From Sneathiella sp. P13V-1 (GTDB taxonomy: Bacteria; Pseudomonadota; Alphaproteobacteria; Sneathiellales; Sneathiellaceae), in assembly GCF_015143595.1 (NCBI RefSeq), contig NZ_WYEU01000002.1, positions 1,054,001-1,118,000 of the forward strand: DNA of 64,000 nt, written 5' to 3'. The notes beneath the pieces are model-generated. The model searched no databases, was not told the origin of the DNA, and worked only from the letters and a program-made list of their open reading frames with translations. The translations under genes and the position numbers were made by a program. Positions 6,373 to 44,008 of this stretch are shown here, piece by piece (position 1 is the first letter of the stretch; each line of letters begins with the position of its first letter).

Positions 6373-8655
6373 TTAGAAACGTGTACCAAATTCAAGCTGG
6401 AACACTTCTTCCCTATCAAAAGATTCTTTAAGGAACGGGTACGAAATATTGACTTGTAGCGGGCCAAAAGGGGATGTCCAGTTTACACCGAAGCCTGCAG
6501 AAGCACGGAGGCTTGCTTCATCTTCAATATTCGGATCATCGTCATCAATACCGGTTGCTGTACCTGCATATACGAAAGTTCGTCCAACCAGTCCAAACTC
6601 TTCTGGGAAACCAAGCGGGAAACGAACCTCAGCTTTACCTACAGCGTATAGGTTGGATCCCAAACCATCGCCACTTGGCTCATCTCTTGGTCCAATGCCT
6701 GTTTTCTTAAAGCCTCTGAAAGACCGCCCGCCAATTTTGTAGCGTTGTGACAAGATAACATCCTCTCCAAGGCCAACAATATATCCAGCATCGGCGCCAA
6801 TACTTAATACCACATCATCATCGACGATTGGGAAAAACTCGACATACTCGCCTTGTGTCGCCAGAGAGTAAACATCACCACCCAAGCCTGAAATAGTTTG
6901 CCCGATTGAATATTTTCTACCTTCTGTTGGTAAAATCGGATCATCCAGATAATTAAAAGTCAGTCTATAACCAACTGAAGAAATTAAAAATTCTCCTGCT
7001 GATTTTTGGATACTTACAGAAGCACTAGATTTTACGTTTTCAATTTTTTCGTTAATCAGGGCATAAGTCAAAGATGCACTAACATCCTCGGTAATTGGAA
7101 ATCCAGTTCTCAACTGAATCCCTGTTTTCTGGGAATCATAACTTCCGGAATCCTGATTGTCCTGCTTTGTGTGGAAGATGTCAAAACCAGCCCGCAAGTC
7201 TTTACCCATGAAATATGGCTCAGTAAATCCGAGATCAATTTGTTGATTTTCGGCACCTAAAGAGATTTTGAAACGCAGATCCTGCCCTCGCCCTAATAGG
7301 TTTCTTTCGCGAAGTTGAAGATCCGCGGAAACAGAGTCTTGTGTAGAGAAACCAGCACCAACACTTAATTCACCCGTTGATTTCTCCTGCACGTCCACAT
7401 TGATTATTGTTTTGTCAGGATCAGAGCCTTCATCCTGCGTCACTTCAACTTTTTCAAAGAAGTTCATTCCGCGTATTCGGGAACGTGACTTTCTCAATAG
7501 AGCGGTGTTGAACGCATCCCCCTCAACTAATCTGAATTCTCGACGGATCACGTGATCAAGGGTACGTACATTGCCTGTTATGTTAATTCGCTCGACATAT
7601 ACACGTGGTCCCTTTTTAATTTGATAATTCAATCCAATAGTCAGGTTTTCTTTATCACGATCTACTTTCGGGCGAACATTTACGAACGCATAACCAAGAC
7701 GACCCAACTCAAAGGTAATATCCTGAATAGTCTCTTCAATAAGATCCGCATTATAAAACTGACCCTCAACGGTTTTCAGAAGAGGTCGTAATTGTTCGGA
7801 TTGTAGGTCCTTCAGCTCACTCTCAACATCAATCTTACCAAACTTGTAACGCTCTCCTTCGTCAAGGGCAAAAGTGATATAGAAACCATCCCTGTCAGGT
7901 GTCAGTTCAGCCACAGCGGAAGTCACTCGGAAATCTGCATACCCCTTACTCAGGTAATATTTCCGAAGCAGTTCCCGGTCATAGGTTAAGCGATCCGGGT
8001 CATATGTATCCCCATCAGATAACAGATTATACCAACGACTTTCAGTGGTGGAAACTTGCCCGCGCAAGCGCTTATCTTTAAATCGCTTATTACCGATAAA
8101 ACGGATTTTCTTGATGCCCGTCTCTTCGCCTTCATTAATCTCAAAAACCAAGTCGACCCGATTTTCTGGAAGCTGAATAACCTTAGGCTCTACCACAGTC
8201 GCAAATCGACCACTTCGCCGATAAACCGTAATAATTCTCTGTACATCATTTTGTACACGCGCACGTGTGTATACGACGCGCGGGCGCAACTGTACTTCGG
8301 CGCTCAGGATATCATCGGCAATACGAAGGTTACCCTCAAAAGCAAGGCGGTTGATGATTGGGTTTTCAACAACGCTGACAATAACCGCGGACCCTTCGCG
8401 ACGGATAGATACGTCCGCAAACAAGCCTGTGTTAAACAGGGCTTTCAAAGATTTATCGATACGTGATCTGTTATATGGGGATCCAACAGAAAAGAGGAGA
8501 TAGGATTGAACGGTTGCCCCTTCAATACGGCGGTTACCTTCAATGCGGACGTCACTGATAATCGCATTTGATTGAGCATAGGCCGTGTTTCTTTCAACAT
8601 AAGAAACACTCGCCACTGCTGCCAAGAGCATACAGATAAAGACCGTTACGCGCAA
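6373..8655 (-). CDS. bamA: Outer membrane protein assembly factor BamA
   Basis: Omp85-family core of the BAM complex; inserts beta-barrel proteins into the outer membrane. 760 aa: a signal peptide ending near AYAQ (28), five POTRA domains (~30-360) and a C-terminal 16-stranded barrel. The loop-6 motif appears as GGRSFRGF and the protein ends in ...GTRF, the terminal phenylalanine barrel signal. The start is a TTG at 8655 behind GGGTGGGAAA; the only other early start, ATG at 8631, would remove most of the signal-peptide n-region. Follows rseP by 54 bases. Confidence 0.97.
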   Translation of the reverse strand: MRVTVFICMLLAAVASVSYVERNTAYAQSNAIISDVRIEGNRRIEGATVQSYLLFSVGSPYNRSRIDKSLKALFNTGLFADVSIRREGSAVIVSVVENPIINRLAFEGNLRIADDILSAEVQLRPRVVYTRARVQNDVQRIITVYRRSGRFATVVEPKVIQLPENRVDLVFEINEGEETGIKKIRFIGNKRFKDKRLRGQVSTTESRWYNLLSDGDTYDPDRLTYDRELLRKYYLSKGYADFRVTSAVAELTPDRDGFYITFALDEGERYKFGKIDVESELKDLQSEQLRPLLKTVEGQFYNADLIEETIQDITFELGRLGYAFVNVRPKVDRDKENLTIGLNYQIKKGPRVYVERINITGNVRTLDHVIRREFRLVEGDAFNTALLRKSRSRIRGMNFFEKVEVTQDEGSDPDKTIINVDVQEKSTGELSVGAGFSTQDSVSADLQLRERNLLGRGQDLRFKISLGAENQQIDLGFTEPYFMGKDLRAGFDIFHTKQDNQDSGSYDSQKTGIQLRTGFPITEDVSASLTYALINEKIENVKSSASVSIQKSAGEFLISSVGYRLTFNYLDDPILPTEGRKYSIGQTISGLGGDVYSLATQGEYVEFFPIVDDDVVLSIGADAGYIVGLGEDVILSQRYKIGGRSFRGFKKTGIGPRDEPSGDGLGSNLYAVGKAEVRFPLGFPEEFGLVGRTFVYAGTATGIDDDDPNIEDEASLRASAGFGVNWTSPFGPLQVNISYPFLKESFDREEVFQLEFGTRF

Positions 8656-16108: not shown

Positions 16109-19100
16109 TTAGATATCGTGAACATCCTGAACACCAGGCACATATTTGAGCGCCTGACGCACCTCTGGCGAAATGCTGAAGGTATTCTTTAGATCAAGTT
16201 CCACTTCCTTGTTTTCGCCCTCAAGATTAAGAACAAACGCAACCCGCCCCCGCCCGGATCCCGCTCCGTTCAGTATTTCAGCAATCTGAGTAATCGGGTT
16301 GTCATCATCCATAAAGATACGCACCCCATCTCCTGTCTGAGAAGCCACATATTCAAGACGCTGTACAGAGTTGGCGGTAACGCGTGGTTGTTCATTTTCA
16401 ACATCCATATGCCCAACGACGCTCACAACAACCGAATTTCCAACCTCAAGGATTTCACGGCATTGCATCAGCGTTTCTTCGAACAAGGTTACTTCAAAGG
16501 CGCCAGACGCGTCAGATAACTGAACAAAAGCAAGGGCTTTCCCCTTCTTCGTTTTGATCTGGCGCTTACCCATAATAGTACCGGCGAGTTTTGCAGCACT
16601 ATCGGCGGCACTCAAGGACGCCATATATGATGAACTGCTTCGTACCCCTGCCTTGTCGAGTGTTTTTGCATAGGCGTCCAACGGGTGCCCCGACAGGTAA
16701 AAACCAACCGCGTCAAACTCCTGCTTCAACTGCTCCATGGATGTCCAGCGACTGCTCTTTACCAACACAGGAGCAACGGAGGCCTCAACTTCCGAACCAC
16801 CAAACAAGTTCACCTGACCTGATCCGCGTTCCTCCTCCATTTGCTGCGCGTGCCGAATGAGGTTTTCTAAAGATGCGAAAACCTGTGCGCGATCTCCATG
16901 TAATGCATCAAACGCCCCTGCCCGCGTTAGATTTTCCGCCTGACGTTTATTCAAGTGTTTGGGGTTAAGTCGGGAGGAAAAATCAAAGATGTCTTTAAAT
17001 GCTCCGTTCTCTTCGCGCTCTTTAACGATACCGGCCATAGCATCGCGGCCCACATTTTTAACGGCAGCAAGGGCATACCGAACGGCGCCTTTCTCCCCTT
17101 CAAACTCAACATTAAACTCCACGTCAGAATGATTGAGGCATGGAGGGTAAAGAGGGATCTTCATCTGTTCCAGATCTTGACGGAAGATATTGAGTTTGTC
17201 TGTGTTATTAATATCGAGGCTCATGGACGCTGCCATAAACTCAACGGGATAGTTCGCTTTCAAGTAAGCAGTGTGATAGGACACAAGCGCATATGCCGCC
17301 GCGTGTGATTTGTTGAAGCCATAGCTCGCGAACTTTGCCACAAGGTCAAAAATGTGACTAGCCTGCTTCGGATCAACACCCTGTTCTTCCGCACCTTCAC
17401 AGAAGCGCGCCCGCTGTTTATCCATTTCCTCTTTAATCTTCTTACCCATGGCACGACGGAGCAAATCCGCTTCACCAAGGCTGTACCCAGCAAGGACCTT
17501 GGCGATTTCCATCACCTGCTCCTGATAGATGATCACGCCATTGGTCTCTTCCAGGATATGTTCCAGCTTTGGATGAAGAAGGTTTGGCTCTTCCTCCCCG
17601 TGCTTACAGCGGATATAGGTGGGTATGTTTTCCATGGGGCCCGGACGGTACAGCGCCACGATCGCGATAATATCCTCAAAAGCGTCGGGACGCATCTTCC
17701 GAAGCATGTCCCGCATACCTGAACTCTCCAACTGGAATACACCTACGGTATCACCGCGAGAAAGAAGCTCGAACGTCGCTTTGTCATCCAAGGGAATAGC
17801 TGAGAAATCAATATCAATGCCCCGCTTGGCAATCAGATCCTTGGCCCTGTCCAATACGGTCAGGGTTTTAAGTCCCAAGAAGTCAAATTTCACGAGACCA
17901 GCGGTTTCCACATATTTCATGGAATATTGTGTGACCGGCATGTCTGAGCGCGGGTCTCGATAAAGCGGAACCAGCTCGTCCAGTTCACGGTCACCGATCA
18001 CCACACCCGCAGCGTGGGTGGAAGCGTGCCGATAAAGACCTTCCAATTGCAACGCAATTTCAATAAGGCGCGCAACCTCCGGATCATTTCGCTGCGCTTC
18101 GCGCAACGGCACTTCCGTATCCAACGCTTCTTGAAGGCTCATGGGGTTGGCAGGGTTAGAGGGGATCAGTTTACTGATACGGTCCACCTGACCATAAGGC
18201 ATTTGCAAAACACGGCCCACATCACGAATAGCCGCTTTGGCCTGCAATTTACCGAATGTGATAATCTGCGCCACCTGATCGTGACCATATTTGTCCTGAA
18301 CGTAGCGGATCACTTCGCCGCGTTTATCTTGACAGAAGTCGATATCAAAGTCAGGCATACTGACCCGTTCCGGGTTCAGGAAACGTTCAAACAGCAAACC
18401 AAAGCGCAAAGGATCAAGGTCGGTGATGGTCAATACCCAGGCGACCAAAGAACCCGCACCGGAACCACGCCCAGGCCCAACTGGAATATCATGATCTTTG
18501 GACCACTGGATAAAGTCAGAAACGATCAGGAAGTAACCCGGGAACCCCATCTGAATGATGACGCCTAGCTCAAACTCAAGACGCTCCCAGTATTCTTTGC
18601 CTTTTTCCTCTCTTGCCGCTTCGTCCATATCATCAGTAAAAACAGCGGTTTCAAGGCGCATGTGAAGGCCTTTTTCTGCCAAAGCTCGCAATTCATCCGC
18701 CTCATTACGACCTTCACCTGATGTAAAAGCGGGCAAAATTGGTGGTCGTGTCGGGGATAAAACGGCGCAGCGCTGTGCAATGACTACGGTGTTATCAATG
18801 GCCTCTGGCAGATCATGGAAAAGTTCCCGCATTTCTTCAGCAGATTTGAAGTAATGCTCAGGTGTGCGGCGCGGGCGTTCCAGTTCCCCAACATAGGATC
18901 CCGAAGCAATGCAAAGAAGCGCATCATGTGCGTCATACATATCGCGCTTTGGGAAGAAACATTCATTGGTGGCCACTAGAGGAATATCATGCTCATAGGC
19001 AAGTTCCAGAAAACGAGGCTCTGTTCCTTGCTCCGCTTCGGTGCCATGACGCTGAATTTCCATATAGAGCCGCTGGTCAAAAGCTTTTTTAAGCCGGAGC

Positions 19101-19582
19101 AACATCTGGACGGCTTCATCATTATGCTCTTTGAGGATAAGGCGACCTATAGGACCTTCCGCCCCACCCGTCAGGCAAATAACACCTTCAGAATGTTTCT
19201 CTAAAACGTCAATCGGCACCTGAGCGGTCTCACCTGCTTCCGTTTTAAGGTAAGCATGAGAAGACAATTTCAGAAGATTGTAATAACCGGTATCATTTTG
19301 GGAGAGCAGCACAACGGGTGTTGGTTCCGGCCGACGACCATTTCTTTCAATCGGCTCAATACTGGTCAGGGCAATCTGACATCCAATAATCGGCTGGATG
19401 CCCTTACCCGGCAATGTGAGGGAGATTTCCAGGCTACCAAAAAGATTGCTGGTATCCGTTATCGCCACGGCTGGCATCTTGTTATCAAGACACAGGTCCG
19501 CAAGCATCTTAACAGGGATCGCCCCCTCTGAAAGAGAGTAAGCAGTGTGAACCCTTAAGTGAACGAACCCGGCGTGCGACAT
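16109..19582 (-). CDS. dnaE: DNA polymerase III alpha subunit
   Basis: Replicative DNA polymerase. 1157 aa from the ATG at 19582. An N-terminal PHP domain (FVHLRVHTAYS at the start, to ~270) is followed by the palm with the catalytic triad in MPDFDIDF (~405), thumb, fingers, a helix-hairpin-helix region and an OB-fold near the C-terminus (GKRQIKTKKGKALAFVQLSD). Homologues begin at MS..FVHLRVH, which favours 19582; an ATG at 19618 with AAGG 9 bases upstream would add 12 residues. The upstream region carries a perfect DnaA box and a GANTC cluster (see separate entries). Confidence 0.97.
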   Translation of the reverse strand: MSHAGFVHLRVHTAYSLSEGAIPVKMLADLCLDNKMPAVAITDTSNLFGSLEISLTLPGKGIQPIIGCQIALTSIEPIERNGRRPEPTPVVLLSQNDTGYYNLLKLSSHAYLKTEAGETAQVPIDVLEKHSEGVICLTGGAEGPIGRLILKEHNDEAVQMLLRLKKAFDQRLYMEIQRHGTEAEQGTEPRFLELAYEHDIPLVATNECFFPKRDMYDAHDALLCIASGSYVGELERPRRTPEHYFKSAEEMRELFHDLPEAIDNTVVIAQRCAVLSPTRPPILPAFTSGEGRNEADELRALAEKGLHMRLETAVFTDDMDEAAREEKGKEYWERLEFELGVIIQMGFPGYFLIVSDFIQWSKDHDIPVGPGRGSGAGSLVAWVLTITDLDPLRFGLLFERFLNPERVSMPDFDIDFCQDKRGEVIRYVQDKYGHDQVAQIITFGKLQAKAAIRDVGRVLQMPYGQVDRISKLIPSNPANPMSLQEALDTEVPLREAQRNDPEVARLIEIALQLEGLYRHASTHAAGVVIGDRELDELVPLYRDPRSDMPVTQYSMKYVETAGLVKFDFLGLKTLTVLDRAKDLIAKRGIDIDFSAIPLDDKATFELLSRGDTVGVFQLESSGMRDMLRKMRPDAFEDIIAIVALYRPGPMENIPTYIRCKHGEEEPNLLHPKLEHILEETNGVIIYQEQVMEIAKVLAGYSLGEADLLRRAMGKKIKEEMDKQRARFCEGAEEQGVDPKQASHIFDLVAKFASYGFNKSHAAAYALVSYHTAYLKANYPVEFMAASMSLDINNTDKLNIFRQDLEQMKIPLYPPCLNHSDVEFNVEFEGEKGAVRYALAAVKNVGRDAMAGIVKEREENGAFKDIFDFSSRLNPKHLNKRQAENLTRAGAFDALHGDRAQVFASLENLIRHAQQMEEERGSGQVNLFGGSEVEASVAPVLVKSSRWTSMEQLKQEFDAVGFYLSGHPLDAYAKTLDKAGVRSSSSYMASLSAADSAAKLAGTIMGKRQIKTKKGKALAFVQLSDASGAFEVTLFEETLMQCREILEVGNSVVVSVVGHMDVENEQPRVTANSVQRLEYVASQTGDGVRIFMDDDNPITQIAEILNGAGSGRGRVAFVLNLEGENKEVELDLKNTFSISPEVRQALKYVPGVQDVHDI

Positions 19583-19674
19583 GGATCTGTTTTCCAGTAA
19601 AGACTTTAGTTGTCCCATTATCACACACCTTTTTTAAAAGATAAGATCTTGACTCCCGTTCACGTCCATTTTTC

Positions 19675-19683
19675 TGTGGATAA
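19675..19683 (-). promoter_or_regulatory. Perfect DnaA box upstream of dnaE
   Basis: TTATCCACA on the minus strand, 92 bases upstream of the dnaE start. A one-mismatch copy (TTATCCACT) is at 19925-19933; both are followed on the plus strand by TTTGCA after 0-2 extra bases. Confidence 0.5.
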
Positions 19684-19700
19684 AATTTGCATATACAGGG

Positions 19701-19808
19701 TTAGCCCGTGAAGCTGTGAACAATTTCCGCCCAGAAAACCAGCGTTGCCATGACGCTACCAAAGACAACAAATTCAAAGCTGCTTTTCAAAATTTTGAAG
19801 TTAGTCAT
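19701..19808 (-). CDS. 35-aa single-pass membrane protein upstream of dnaE
   Basis: Not recognised. The ATG at 19808 has an almost ideal ribosome binding site, AAGGAGG, 5 bases upstream and a promoter-like TTGACA-17-CATCAT just before it. The predicted product has a short basic N-terminus (MTNFKILKSS), one hydrophobic stretch (FEFVVFGSVMATLVFWAEIV, residues 11-30) and a five-residue polar tail (HSFTG). It lies 118 bases upstream of dnaE on the same strand and 207 bases downstream of lolD. No known small-protein family (CydX-like or oxidase subunit IV-like) clearly fits. Confidence 0.6.
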   Translation of the reverse strand: MTNFKILKSSFEFVVFGSVMATLVFWAEIVHSFTG

Positions 19809-19834
19809 GTCATCCTCCTTGAGTTGTTGGAAGG

Positions 19835-19863
19835 ATGATGTTCATTTTTTGTTCTCATGTCAA
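19835..19863 (-). promoter_or_regulatory. Promoter of the 35-aa ORF (possibly also dnaE)
   Basis: TTGACA (19858-19863), 17-base spacer, CATCAT (19835-19840), read on the minus strand; predicted transcription start ~20 bases before the ribosome binding site of the 35-aa ORF. Confidence 0.5.
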
Positions 19864-19958
19864 ACAAAACAAGAACATTTATATAATATATATTAATTTC
19901 AATATGTTAAATAACATAACCAATAGTGGATAATTTGCAAAACGATCCCTTCTCTACC

Positions 19959-19997
19959 GAATCTTATATAGATTCCTAGAATCAAAAAAGGTGATTC
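19959..19997. promoter_or_regulatory. Cluster of four GANTC methylation sites
   Basis: GAATC 19959, GATTC 19971, GAATC 19979 and GATTC 19993, four sites in 39 bp in the AT-rich stretch between lolD and the 35-aa ORF/dnaE. GANTC is the CcrM methyltransferase site of alphaproteobacteria, and grouped sites mark GcrA/CcrM-controlled promoters in Caulobacter. Confidence 0.5.
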
Positions 19998-20015
19998 AAT
20001 TGTGCTTAAAGAGGA

Positions 20016-20696
20016 TTAATCTGCGATCAGTTGATGATCCCGGATATGGACAATACGGTCCATCCGGCGTGCCAGATCTTTATTATGGGTAGCGACCAAT
20101 GCACCTACGTTTTGGCTTTTGATCAAGTTGACGAAATTTTCAAACACCATATCCGATGTCTGTTCATCAAGATTGCCGGTTGGCTCGTCCGCCAAAAGGA
20201 CAGATGGATTATTGGCAAGCGCGCGGGCAATCGCCACACGTTGTTGTTCCCCGCCAGACAGTTTTGCAGGACGATGCGTTAGACGATGAGAAAGCCCCAT
20301 CAAGGTCAGCAACTCAGTCGCCTTCGCTTTTGCCTTGGATTTTGCCACCCCTGAAATCAGATTTGGCATCATGACGTTTTCCAGTGCGGAAAACTCGGGT
20401 AGCAGATGGTGGAACTGATACACAAAACCGATATCATTGCGCCGCGTTTCGGTTCGTTTTTTATCGTTACCTTGCGTGCAATCCTGACCGTTCACAATCA
20501 CCTTGCCGACCGTCGGTGGCTCCAGCAATCCTGCGATTTGCAACAAGGTGGATTTACCAGCCCCAGATTGTCCCAACAAAGCGACAATCTCACCCGGCTG
20601 AATATCCAGATTTACATTCTGCAGGATTTCGAGCTTCTCTCCGCCCTGCTCAAATGTGCGTCCAACCGCCTGCAAAGAAAGCACTGGATTACTCAT
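20016..20696 (-). CDS. lolD: Lipoprotein-releasing ABC transporter ATPase LolD
   Basis: ATPase that powers release of outer-membrane lipoproteins from the inner membrane to LolA. 226 aa from the ATG at 20696. Walker A GQSGAGKS at 42-49, signature [15 protein letters not shown] near 145, Walker [13 protein letters not shown] after it, and the H-loop THNKD. The start overlaps the end of lolC by 8 bases, so the ATPase and permease are translated as one unit. Confidence 0.94.
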
Positions 20697-43534: not shown

Positions 43535-44008
43535 GCAACATAAATGCTTTTTTTTCAGTTTTTTTTCGGAGCCTTTAAAAGGCTAGAAAAACTGCCAATC
43601 TGACGGAAATTTTTATCCCCATTTTGAGGAAATTTAGATGACCTTCGGTAAGTTTTAAAAAAAATGTCACCAGCACTTTCTAAAATTCGTCGATTTAGAT
43701 TCATAATCTGAAGATTGAATCGTTTTTCTCACGCTTAAACCATTACCCTGAATTCATATTAATCTAATAGAATCAATATTTTATATTCCACAAACAAAAT
43801 TATATGATTCATTGAAAGTGGAATCTCTTCAAATCAGGAAAGACCGATTCATCTTAAAAAACACTCACCCCCTCCCCCTTCCCTGAGGCCGTATTAAGAT
43901 AGTCAGAAAGTGCACCTTATTACCCTGCTGTAAAACCACTGTCATAGGAGACAGATATGGTTCAATGCATCTGTGATTTACTGGGTGGCGGGAGATTGGC
44001 TAGGAAAG
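43535..44008. other. AT-rich gap between two tRNA genes
   Basis: About 470 bases without a confident gene. It holds six GANTC sites within 153 bp (43698, 43717, 43770, 43806, 43821, 43846), several T-runs, a palindromic AGCCTTTAAAAGGCT (43570-43584) and a C/T-rich stretch (CACCCCCTCCCCCTTCCCT, 43866-43884). A 28-codon frame on the plus strand (43957-44043) has GGAG six bases before its ATG, but its 3' part is the tRNA-Val terminator hairpin. Confidence 0.5.

Follow-up and report, generated by a model that had tools for sequence, protein, structure and literature searches.

A putative SOS-inducible, SidA-like microgene ahead of dnaE in Sneathiella, with a lineage-restricted cluster of GANTC sites upstream

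The closest described counterpart of the microgene studied here is SidA of Caulobacter crescentus, a 29-aa inner membrane protein that acts on FtsW and is controlled by LexA (PMC4211646). The SOS box of Caulobacter is given as GTTC-N7-GTTC in the accessible text of a further paper (PMC9578287), and excerpts of two others list Caulobacter dnaE as CC1926 (PMC1839093) and sidA as CCNA_02004 (PMC11034885). A broader likeness is to YneA, DivS, ChiZ and SosA, described in the excerpts available as SOS-induced small division inhibitors of other bacteria; the same excerpts treat yneA, divS and chiZ together with sidA as genes unrelated to sulA. We know of no report that places the genes for YneA, DivS, ChiZ or SosA at dnaE. 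CC1927 we take to be sidA, so that it and dnaE (CC1926) would be neighbours. To our knowledge, division arrest after DNA damage is largely open in alphaproteobacteria outside Caulobacter, because such peptides are too short and too divergent to be found by sequence. Where the available literature couples sidA with dnaE (Caulobacter, SOS, LexA), the latter is mostly dnaE2; that on Sneathiella and LexA offers nothing beyond a review on resistance genes, and no work on SidA orthologues appears in the titles and abstract openings of the matches listed.

The depletion of GANTC in alphaproteobacteria and its intergenic excess are already known, as the accessible part of one study states (PMC3973325). 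In Caulobacter, timing by methylation depends on whether a GANTC lies between the -10 and the -35, according to a study whose search was limited to 50 bp around transcription starts and whose available text also says that DnaA regulates replisome components (PMC4287350). No description of GANTC at dnaE was found in the accessible portions of the literature on GANTC, dnaE and CcrM, and the words dnaE and dnaN are absent from the main texts of PMC3973325, PMC7987155 and PMC3667746.

The window analysed here, a stretch of 64,000 nucleotides from the marine bacterium Sneathiella sp. P13V-1, holds a locus that resembles each of these systems in part. Its microgene would encode a very short membrane protein under LexA, with 35 aa as against the 29 aa reported for SidA, and adjoins dnaE in 22/22 loci, as sidA probably does in Caulobacter, judging from gene numbers. 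The Sneathiella peptide is six residues longer, and the two are likened by size, control and probable position, not by sequence. As at CcrM/GcrA promoters of the ctrA P1, ccrM and ftsZ type, GANTC sites are grouped ahead of a gene relevant to the cell cycle, and CcrM and GcrA are both encoded in the genome; in contrast to these promoters, a distance of 96-134 bp separates the sites from the conserved -35 of the LexA-box promoter downstream, and few relatives have them, whereas the Caulobacter study, in its available text, counted sites at ≤50 bp (PMC4287350). A DnaA box stands upstream of a replication gene, as at DnaA-regulated genes of Caulobacter, but it is fixed at dnaE across the genus and the control it may exert is putative. 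An earlier note on this DNA had pointed to the GANTC sites and to the micro-ORF; the conserved features, namely the LexA and DnaA boxes and the resemblance to SidA, do not appear in it.

The microgene ahead of dnaE and its control region

The features of the region are as follows.
16109..19618, minus strand: dnaE, DNA polymerase III alpha, named by reading the translation
19651..19655, strand not applicable: single GANTC (GACTC on the plus strand) between micro-ORF and dnaE, from the motif count; at the same aligned spot in L003
19675..19683, minus strand: perfect DnaA box, TTATCCACA, upstream of dnaE, present in 22/22 loci
19701..19808, minus strand: micro-ORF of 35 aa, single-helix and SidA-like, with a Shine-Dalgarno sequence AGGAGG at 19819-19814
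19835..19863, minus strand: sigma-70-like promoter (TTGACA, 17 bp, CATCAT) driving the micro-ORF, from promoter scan and alignment
19840..19854, minus strand: LexA box GAAC-N7-GAAC in the promoter spacer, from motif match and conservation
19862..19876, minus strand: second LexA-box-like sequence, imperfect and inverted, overlapping the -35, read directly by eye
19959-19963, 19971-19975, 19979-19983 and 19993-19997, strand not applicable: cluster of four GANTC sites of CcrM type, from the motif count
20016..20696, minus strand: lolD-like ABC transporter gene upstream of the cluster, named by reading the translation

Read along the minus strand, the gap between the lolD-like gene (end 20016, minus) and dnaE (start 19618, minus) begins with the GANTC cluster, 19 bp from the lolD stop, 151 bp upstream of the micro-ORF start at 19808 and, by coordinates, about 341 bp upstream of the dnaE start. 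There follow an AT-rich stretch with a promoter-like match (19910-19883), the TTGACA promoter (19863-19835) with its LexA box, the 35-aa ORF (19808-19701), the DnaA box (19683-19675), the GANTC at 19651 and dnaE, whose start at 19618 is backed by tblastn from residue 1 in 22/22 loci.

The micro-ORF was found in 21 of the order's 25 genomes; of the four in which it was missed, three are incomplete (65, 70 and 84%) and the fourth belongs to another genus. The 22 loci compared throughout are those of the 21 genomes, own genome (L002) included, together with contig L028; in every one an ORF of 35-37 aa lies ahead of dnaE. Among 21 of these ORFs, pairwise differences at codon positions 1, 2 and 3 are 8.4, 7.7 and 20.0, and all six invariant residues that are neither Met nor Trp vary in the third base of their codon. 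The micro-ORF is coding. The peptide is hydrophobic and conserved, with a best 17-residue hydropathy of 2.01, a value that fits a single-pass membrane product. Two traits of SidA are found in the microgene, a single-pass peptide of about 30 aa (by hydropathy) and a LexA-controlled promoter (by sequence). Pfam and NCBIfam gave no match to it. A micro-ORF profile run against 387 genomes of the class at E ≤ 0.01 matched only six genomes of the genus and, weakly and partially, a 115-aa frame in G404; with matches otherwise confined to the genus, sequence homology alone does not reach other families.

The promoter is conserved chiefly at its -35, TTGAC being invariant in 22/22 aligned loci, while the whole promoter rule including the -10 is satisfied in 12/21. 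GAAC-N7-GAAC is perfect in 22/22 loci; where its distance to the micro-ORF was measured, in 21 loci, it is 42-56 nt. It is this conservation that gives the LexA box its weight, since the bare motif is common by chance: the window has two where 2.1 are expected, and a sample of 1.264 Mb of the 3.71-Mb genome (three 400-kb stretches plus the window) has 37, 4 of them between ORFs. LexA and RecA are encoded, and in this genome the same box also precedes both lexA and recA. The second, inverted LexA-like box was seen by eye in all five species that carry the GANTC cluster (own genome, L003, L004, L005 and L008), where the two operators face each other; by eye it is perfect in L010, a locus lacking the cluster.

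The gene directly after the micro-ORF is dnaE in 22/22 loci, across a gap of 77-133 bp that holds the DnaA box. In 22/22 loci the distance from the beginning of TTATCCACA, a 9-mer that we take to be the DnaA consensus, to the dnaE start is 65-66 bp. The position of this box between micro-ORF and dnaE suggests that dnaE may have a start of its own. The sole terminator call of the region is a terminator-like stem of 6 pairs on the minus strand (19758-19740), inside the micro-ORF; a genuine terminator there would restrict read-through into dnaE.

The GANTC cluster in its genome and in the genus

Four GANTC sites do lie within 39 bp at 19959-19997, and the earlier note was right to call their density far above expectation; its base rate of one per 256 positions was too generous, as the 1.264-Mb sample gives about one per 1.1 kb. 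The motif is strongly avoided. In the window, 69 copies stand against 274 ± 14 in dinucleotide shuffles; the sample has 1140 where base composition predicts about 4900, an approximately four-fold depletion, at densities of 0.85 per kb inside and 1.56 per kb outside ORFs (ORFs from a crude script). Among eight gapped palindromes of the same composition it is the rarest in the sample, the other seven occurring 2323-7511 times. A similar density in random AT-rich intergenic regions would, by the note, have spoken against its reading; within the sample, at least four sites in 50 bp were found at 19959-19997 and nowhere else, and four in 60 bp at two further places, one in a tRNA-Gln gene. Four sites in 39 bp arose in 0/20,000 dinucleotide shuffles of 19625-20015 and in 44/20,000 trials in which the 136 sampled intergenic sites were placed at random. 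Chance is an unlikely origin by these shuffles and by the sample, also because the cluster recurs in 5/22 loci. GANTC beyond chance upstream of a gene, as marks a CcrM/GcrA-regulated promoter, is thus found here.

In the five loci (L002, L003, L004, L005 and L008), 3-4 GANTC fall between -127 and -189 relative to the micro-ORF start, and none of the other 17/22 has at least two within 330 bp. L008 (also L031), from S. glossodoripedis, has three. Number and spacing of the sites vary among the five, whose gap sequence is by eye mostly unalike otherwise. L004 has the cluster with no lolD detected upstream of it, which assigns the cluster to the side of the microgene and dnaE. In a tree, the five species fall outside a supported group of 17 species lacking the cluster; the rooting is weak, and a single change for the cluster in the genus occurs in only 2% of 200 bootstrap trees. 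By these comparisons the cluster is lineage-restricted, present in a minority of the genus.

At least three GANTC in 60 bp occur at nine places in the sample, the one upstream of dnaE included; apart from ccrM, the genes at the others were named from their translations. Three sites lie directly 5' of ccrM (G000:C1:367767-367807; L100), close to a TTGACG, an arrangement that a ccrM promoter timing itself would be expected to show. Another three lie before dnaN, between dnaA and dnaN (G000:C1:869597-869622), where the crude ORF caller overlays a short ORF. Further clusters lie between a DUF1223-like and an AMP-ligase-like gene, at an ORF end ahead of a PEP-CTERM-like gene, inside the tRNA-Gln gene, and, flanked by tRNA genes and ahead of a nuoA-like gene, at 43770-43850 of the window. 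The genes ccrM and dnaN are of the type expected to carry CcrM marks; the remaining clustered loci are not obviously so.

Some smaller observations belong here. The last of the places listed is part of a wider run of six GANTC in 153 bp (window 43698-43850), between tRNA-Val and tRNA-Asp, the window's other dense intergenic stretch of the motif. Two more of the nine places are three sites in 37 bp within an ORF at 7116-7152 of the window, in a genome that avoids the motif, and three in 21 bp (G000:C1:983-1003) between flbT-like and flagellin genes. Upstream of dnaN in 27 other CcrM-positive genomes (L204-L233), GANTC is enriched at 100-250 bp, in 28/81 fifty-bp cells compared with 3/108 further up.

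Explanations for the microgene, the cluster and dnaE

We propose, at a probability of roughly 0.5, that an SOS-inducible, SidA-like microgene and dnaE form a two-gene unit with a shared control region, of which the GANTC cluster is a lineage-restricted, methylation-sensitive element. LexA, bound at the box in the promoter spacer, would repress the microgene. DNA damage would free the promoter from LexA, and the 35-aa membrane peptide would then block division, by analogy with SidA. The microgene transcript may continue into dnaE, and the DnaA box before dnaE could add replication-linked control. The cluster, as an added upstream element methylated by CcrM, might let the unit sense the methylation state left by a passing fork, and would offer a further case in which the action of fork-passage signals on the microgene-dnaE unit can be tested.

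Both proteins needed for such an element are encoded in the genome itself: CcrM, with a RAMA domain (PF18755 match, E 1.3e-17), and GcrA (PF07750 match, E 6.7e-20). A ccrM homologue, on whose presence the earlier note had made its proposal depend, is thus at hand. Five species keep 3-4 sites of a genome-avoided motif in an otherwise divergent-looking gap, and this recurrence, together with the presence of CcrM and GcrA, favours a function for the cluster. Methylation-sensitive control through it, in this lineage only, is about even to somewhat likely and no higher, because a long distance separates the sites from the conserved promoter, most relatives do not have them, and class-wide GANTC at dnaE is untied to CcrM and strand-biased.

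The cluster could instead be a fading relic or a neutral local accumulation in an AT-rich gap, with only the LexA and DnaA boxes of consequence. Its distance of 96 bp from the conserved promoter, the 17/22 loci that do without it and its varying number and spacing in the other five are what such a history would leave. However, no gap shuffle reproduced it, GANTC is strongly avoided genome-wide, and five species with gaps that otherwise look mostly unalike by eye all have 3-4 sites; we regard a functionless cluster as rather unlikely.

The earlier note had proposed methylation-state timing of the transcript leading into dnaE. On such a reading the cluster, or the match at 19910-19883, would start a GcrA-dependent transcript running through the microgene into dnaE. 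Part of the case for timing stands: CcrM and GcrA are encoded, comparable clusters precede ccrM and dnaN, and 3-4 sites occur in 5/22 loci. Against it are the 96 bp between the cluster and the conserved -35, the 17/22 loci with no cluster and the independence of class-wide GANTC at dnaE from CcrM. A transcript starting at the cluster could draw on its minus strand, which reads GAATC-TATATAA-GATTC, or on TTAACA-16-TATTAT at 19910-19883, the nearest promoter-like match, weak and 49 bp away. Yet the promoter scan of the region made no call within the cluster, and its three promoter-like matches are no more than shuffles give (1.8 ± 1.4). A promoter between cluster and microgene at 19910-19883 was rejected, as the match has no counterpart in L003, L004, L005 or L008, the other four cluster-bearing species. 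Such a transcript would also render the LexA-controlled microgene leaky, and we think it unlikely.

That the micro-ORF is a leader peptide controlling dnaE translation, and no division inhibitor, would agree with its place directly ahead of dnaE in 22/22 loci; the 77-133 bp gap with its DnaA box separates the two, however, and a LexA-box promoter of its own, a Shine-Dalgarno sequence and a conserved hydrophobic peptide fit a membrane product, which makes a leader peptide quite improbable. That the cluster is the lolD 3' end, with alternating GAATC/GATTC hairpins as terminator or RNA stabiliser, would suit the alternating orientation in this genome and the position right after the lolD stop, but L003 and L008 show no alternation, L004 keeps the cluster with no detectable lolD, and the gap gave no terminator call at the cluster and no Rfam match, so that we give it next to no credence.

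The layout and GANTC at dnaE across the class

The two-gene unit was sought beyond Sneathiella with a strict scan for a LexA box, a -35 match of 5 of 6 and an ORF that is 24-60 aa long, includes a hydrophobic segment and ends ahead of dnaE. With a perfect box, this LexA-promoter, micro-ORF and dnaE layout was found in 14/127 non-Sneathiella alphaproteobacterial genomes, from 12 families by database labels. All fourteen have a Shine-Dalgarno-like run, and by CcrM status they make up 14/94 genomes with the enzyme and 0/33 without. Control regions gave 0/30 for dnaN and 0/30 for rpsB, and the reverse strand of the dnaE regions gave 0/130 for a perfect box and a single case for a box matching at 7 of 8. 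The Sneathiella profile scored above all 200 shuffles for 3/14 of the syntenic peptides (G092, G124 and G101) and not for the other 11, so common descent of all 14 is not established by sequence.

We suggest tentatively, at odds a little short of even, that SidA belongs to an old and fast-changing family of SOS-induced division-inhibitor peptides that spans the class and is held together by gene order, directly ahead of dnaE, and by control through LexA, not by sequence. Damage (through LexA), the initiation of replication (through DnaA) and, in certain lineages, the passing of the fork (through CcrM sites) would then all be read at the control region of dnaE, and the supply of polymerase would be tied to the arrest of division. 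If gene order and a LexA box do find such peptides, many unannotated inhibitors become testable at once.

Single GANTC sites are also frequent near dnaE across the class. In a first set, a GANTC lay in the 50 bp before dnaE in 33/71 CcrM-positive genomes, as against 1/21 for rpsB; in the enlarged set the figures were 35/94 with a RAMA-type CcrM and 12/33 without. Among 16 of these 33 that were queried with the CcrM protein no clear CcrM was found, the best match being 40% over part (G119). The sites are strand-biased as well: within 70 bp before dnaE, GAATC occurs in 33/127 genomes and GATTC in 9/127. Being as common in genomes lacking CcrM, and strand-biased, class-wide GANTC at dnaE was dropped as proof of CcrM control and is excluded here as evidence for methylation. 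A strand-specific element, TRTGGAATCC, was noticed ≤70 bp before dnaE in 6/127 genomes (L067, L069, L153, L157, L163 and L173) and in 0/1126 other 70-bp cells. Genomes with and without CcrM have it; it contains GANTC yet may be read by something else.
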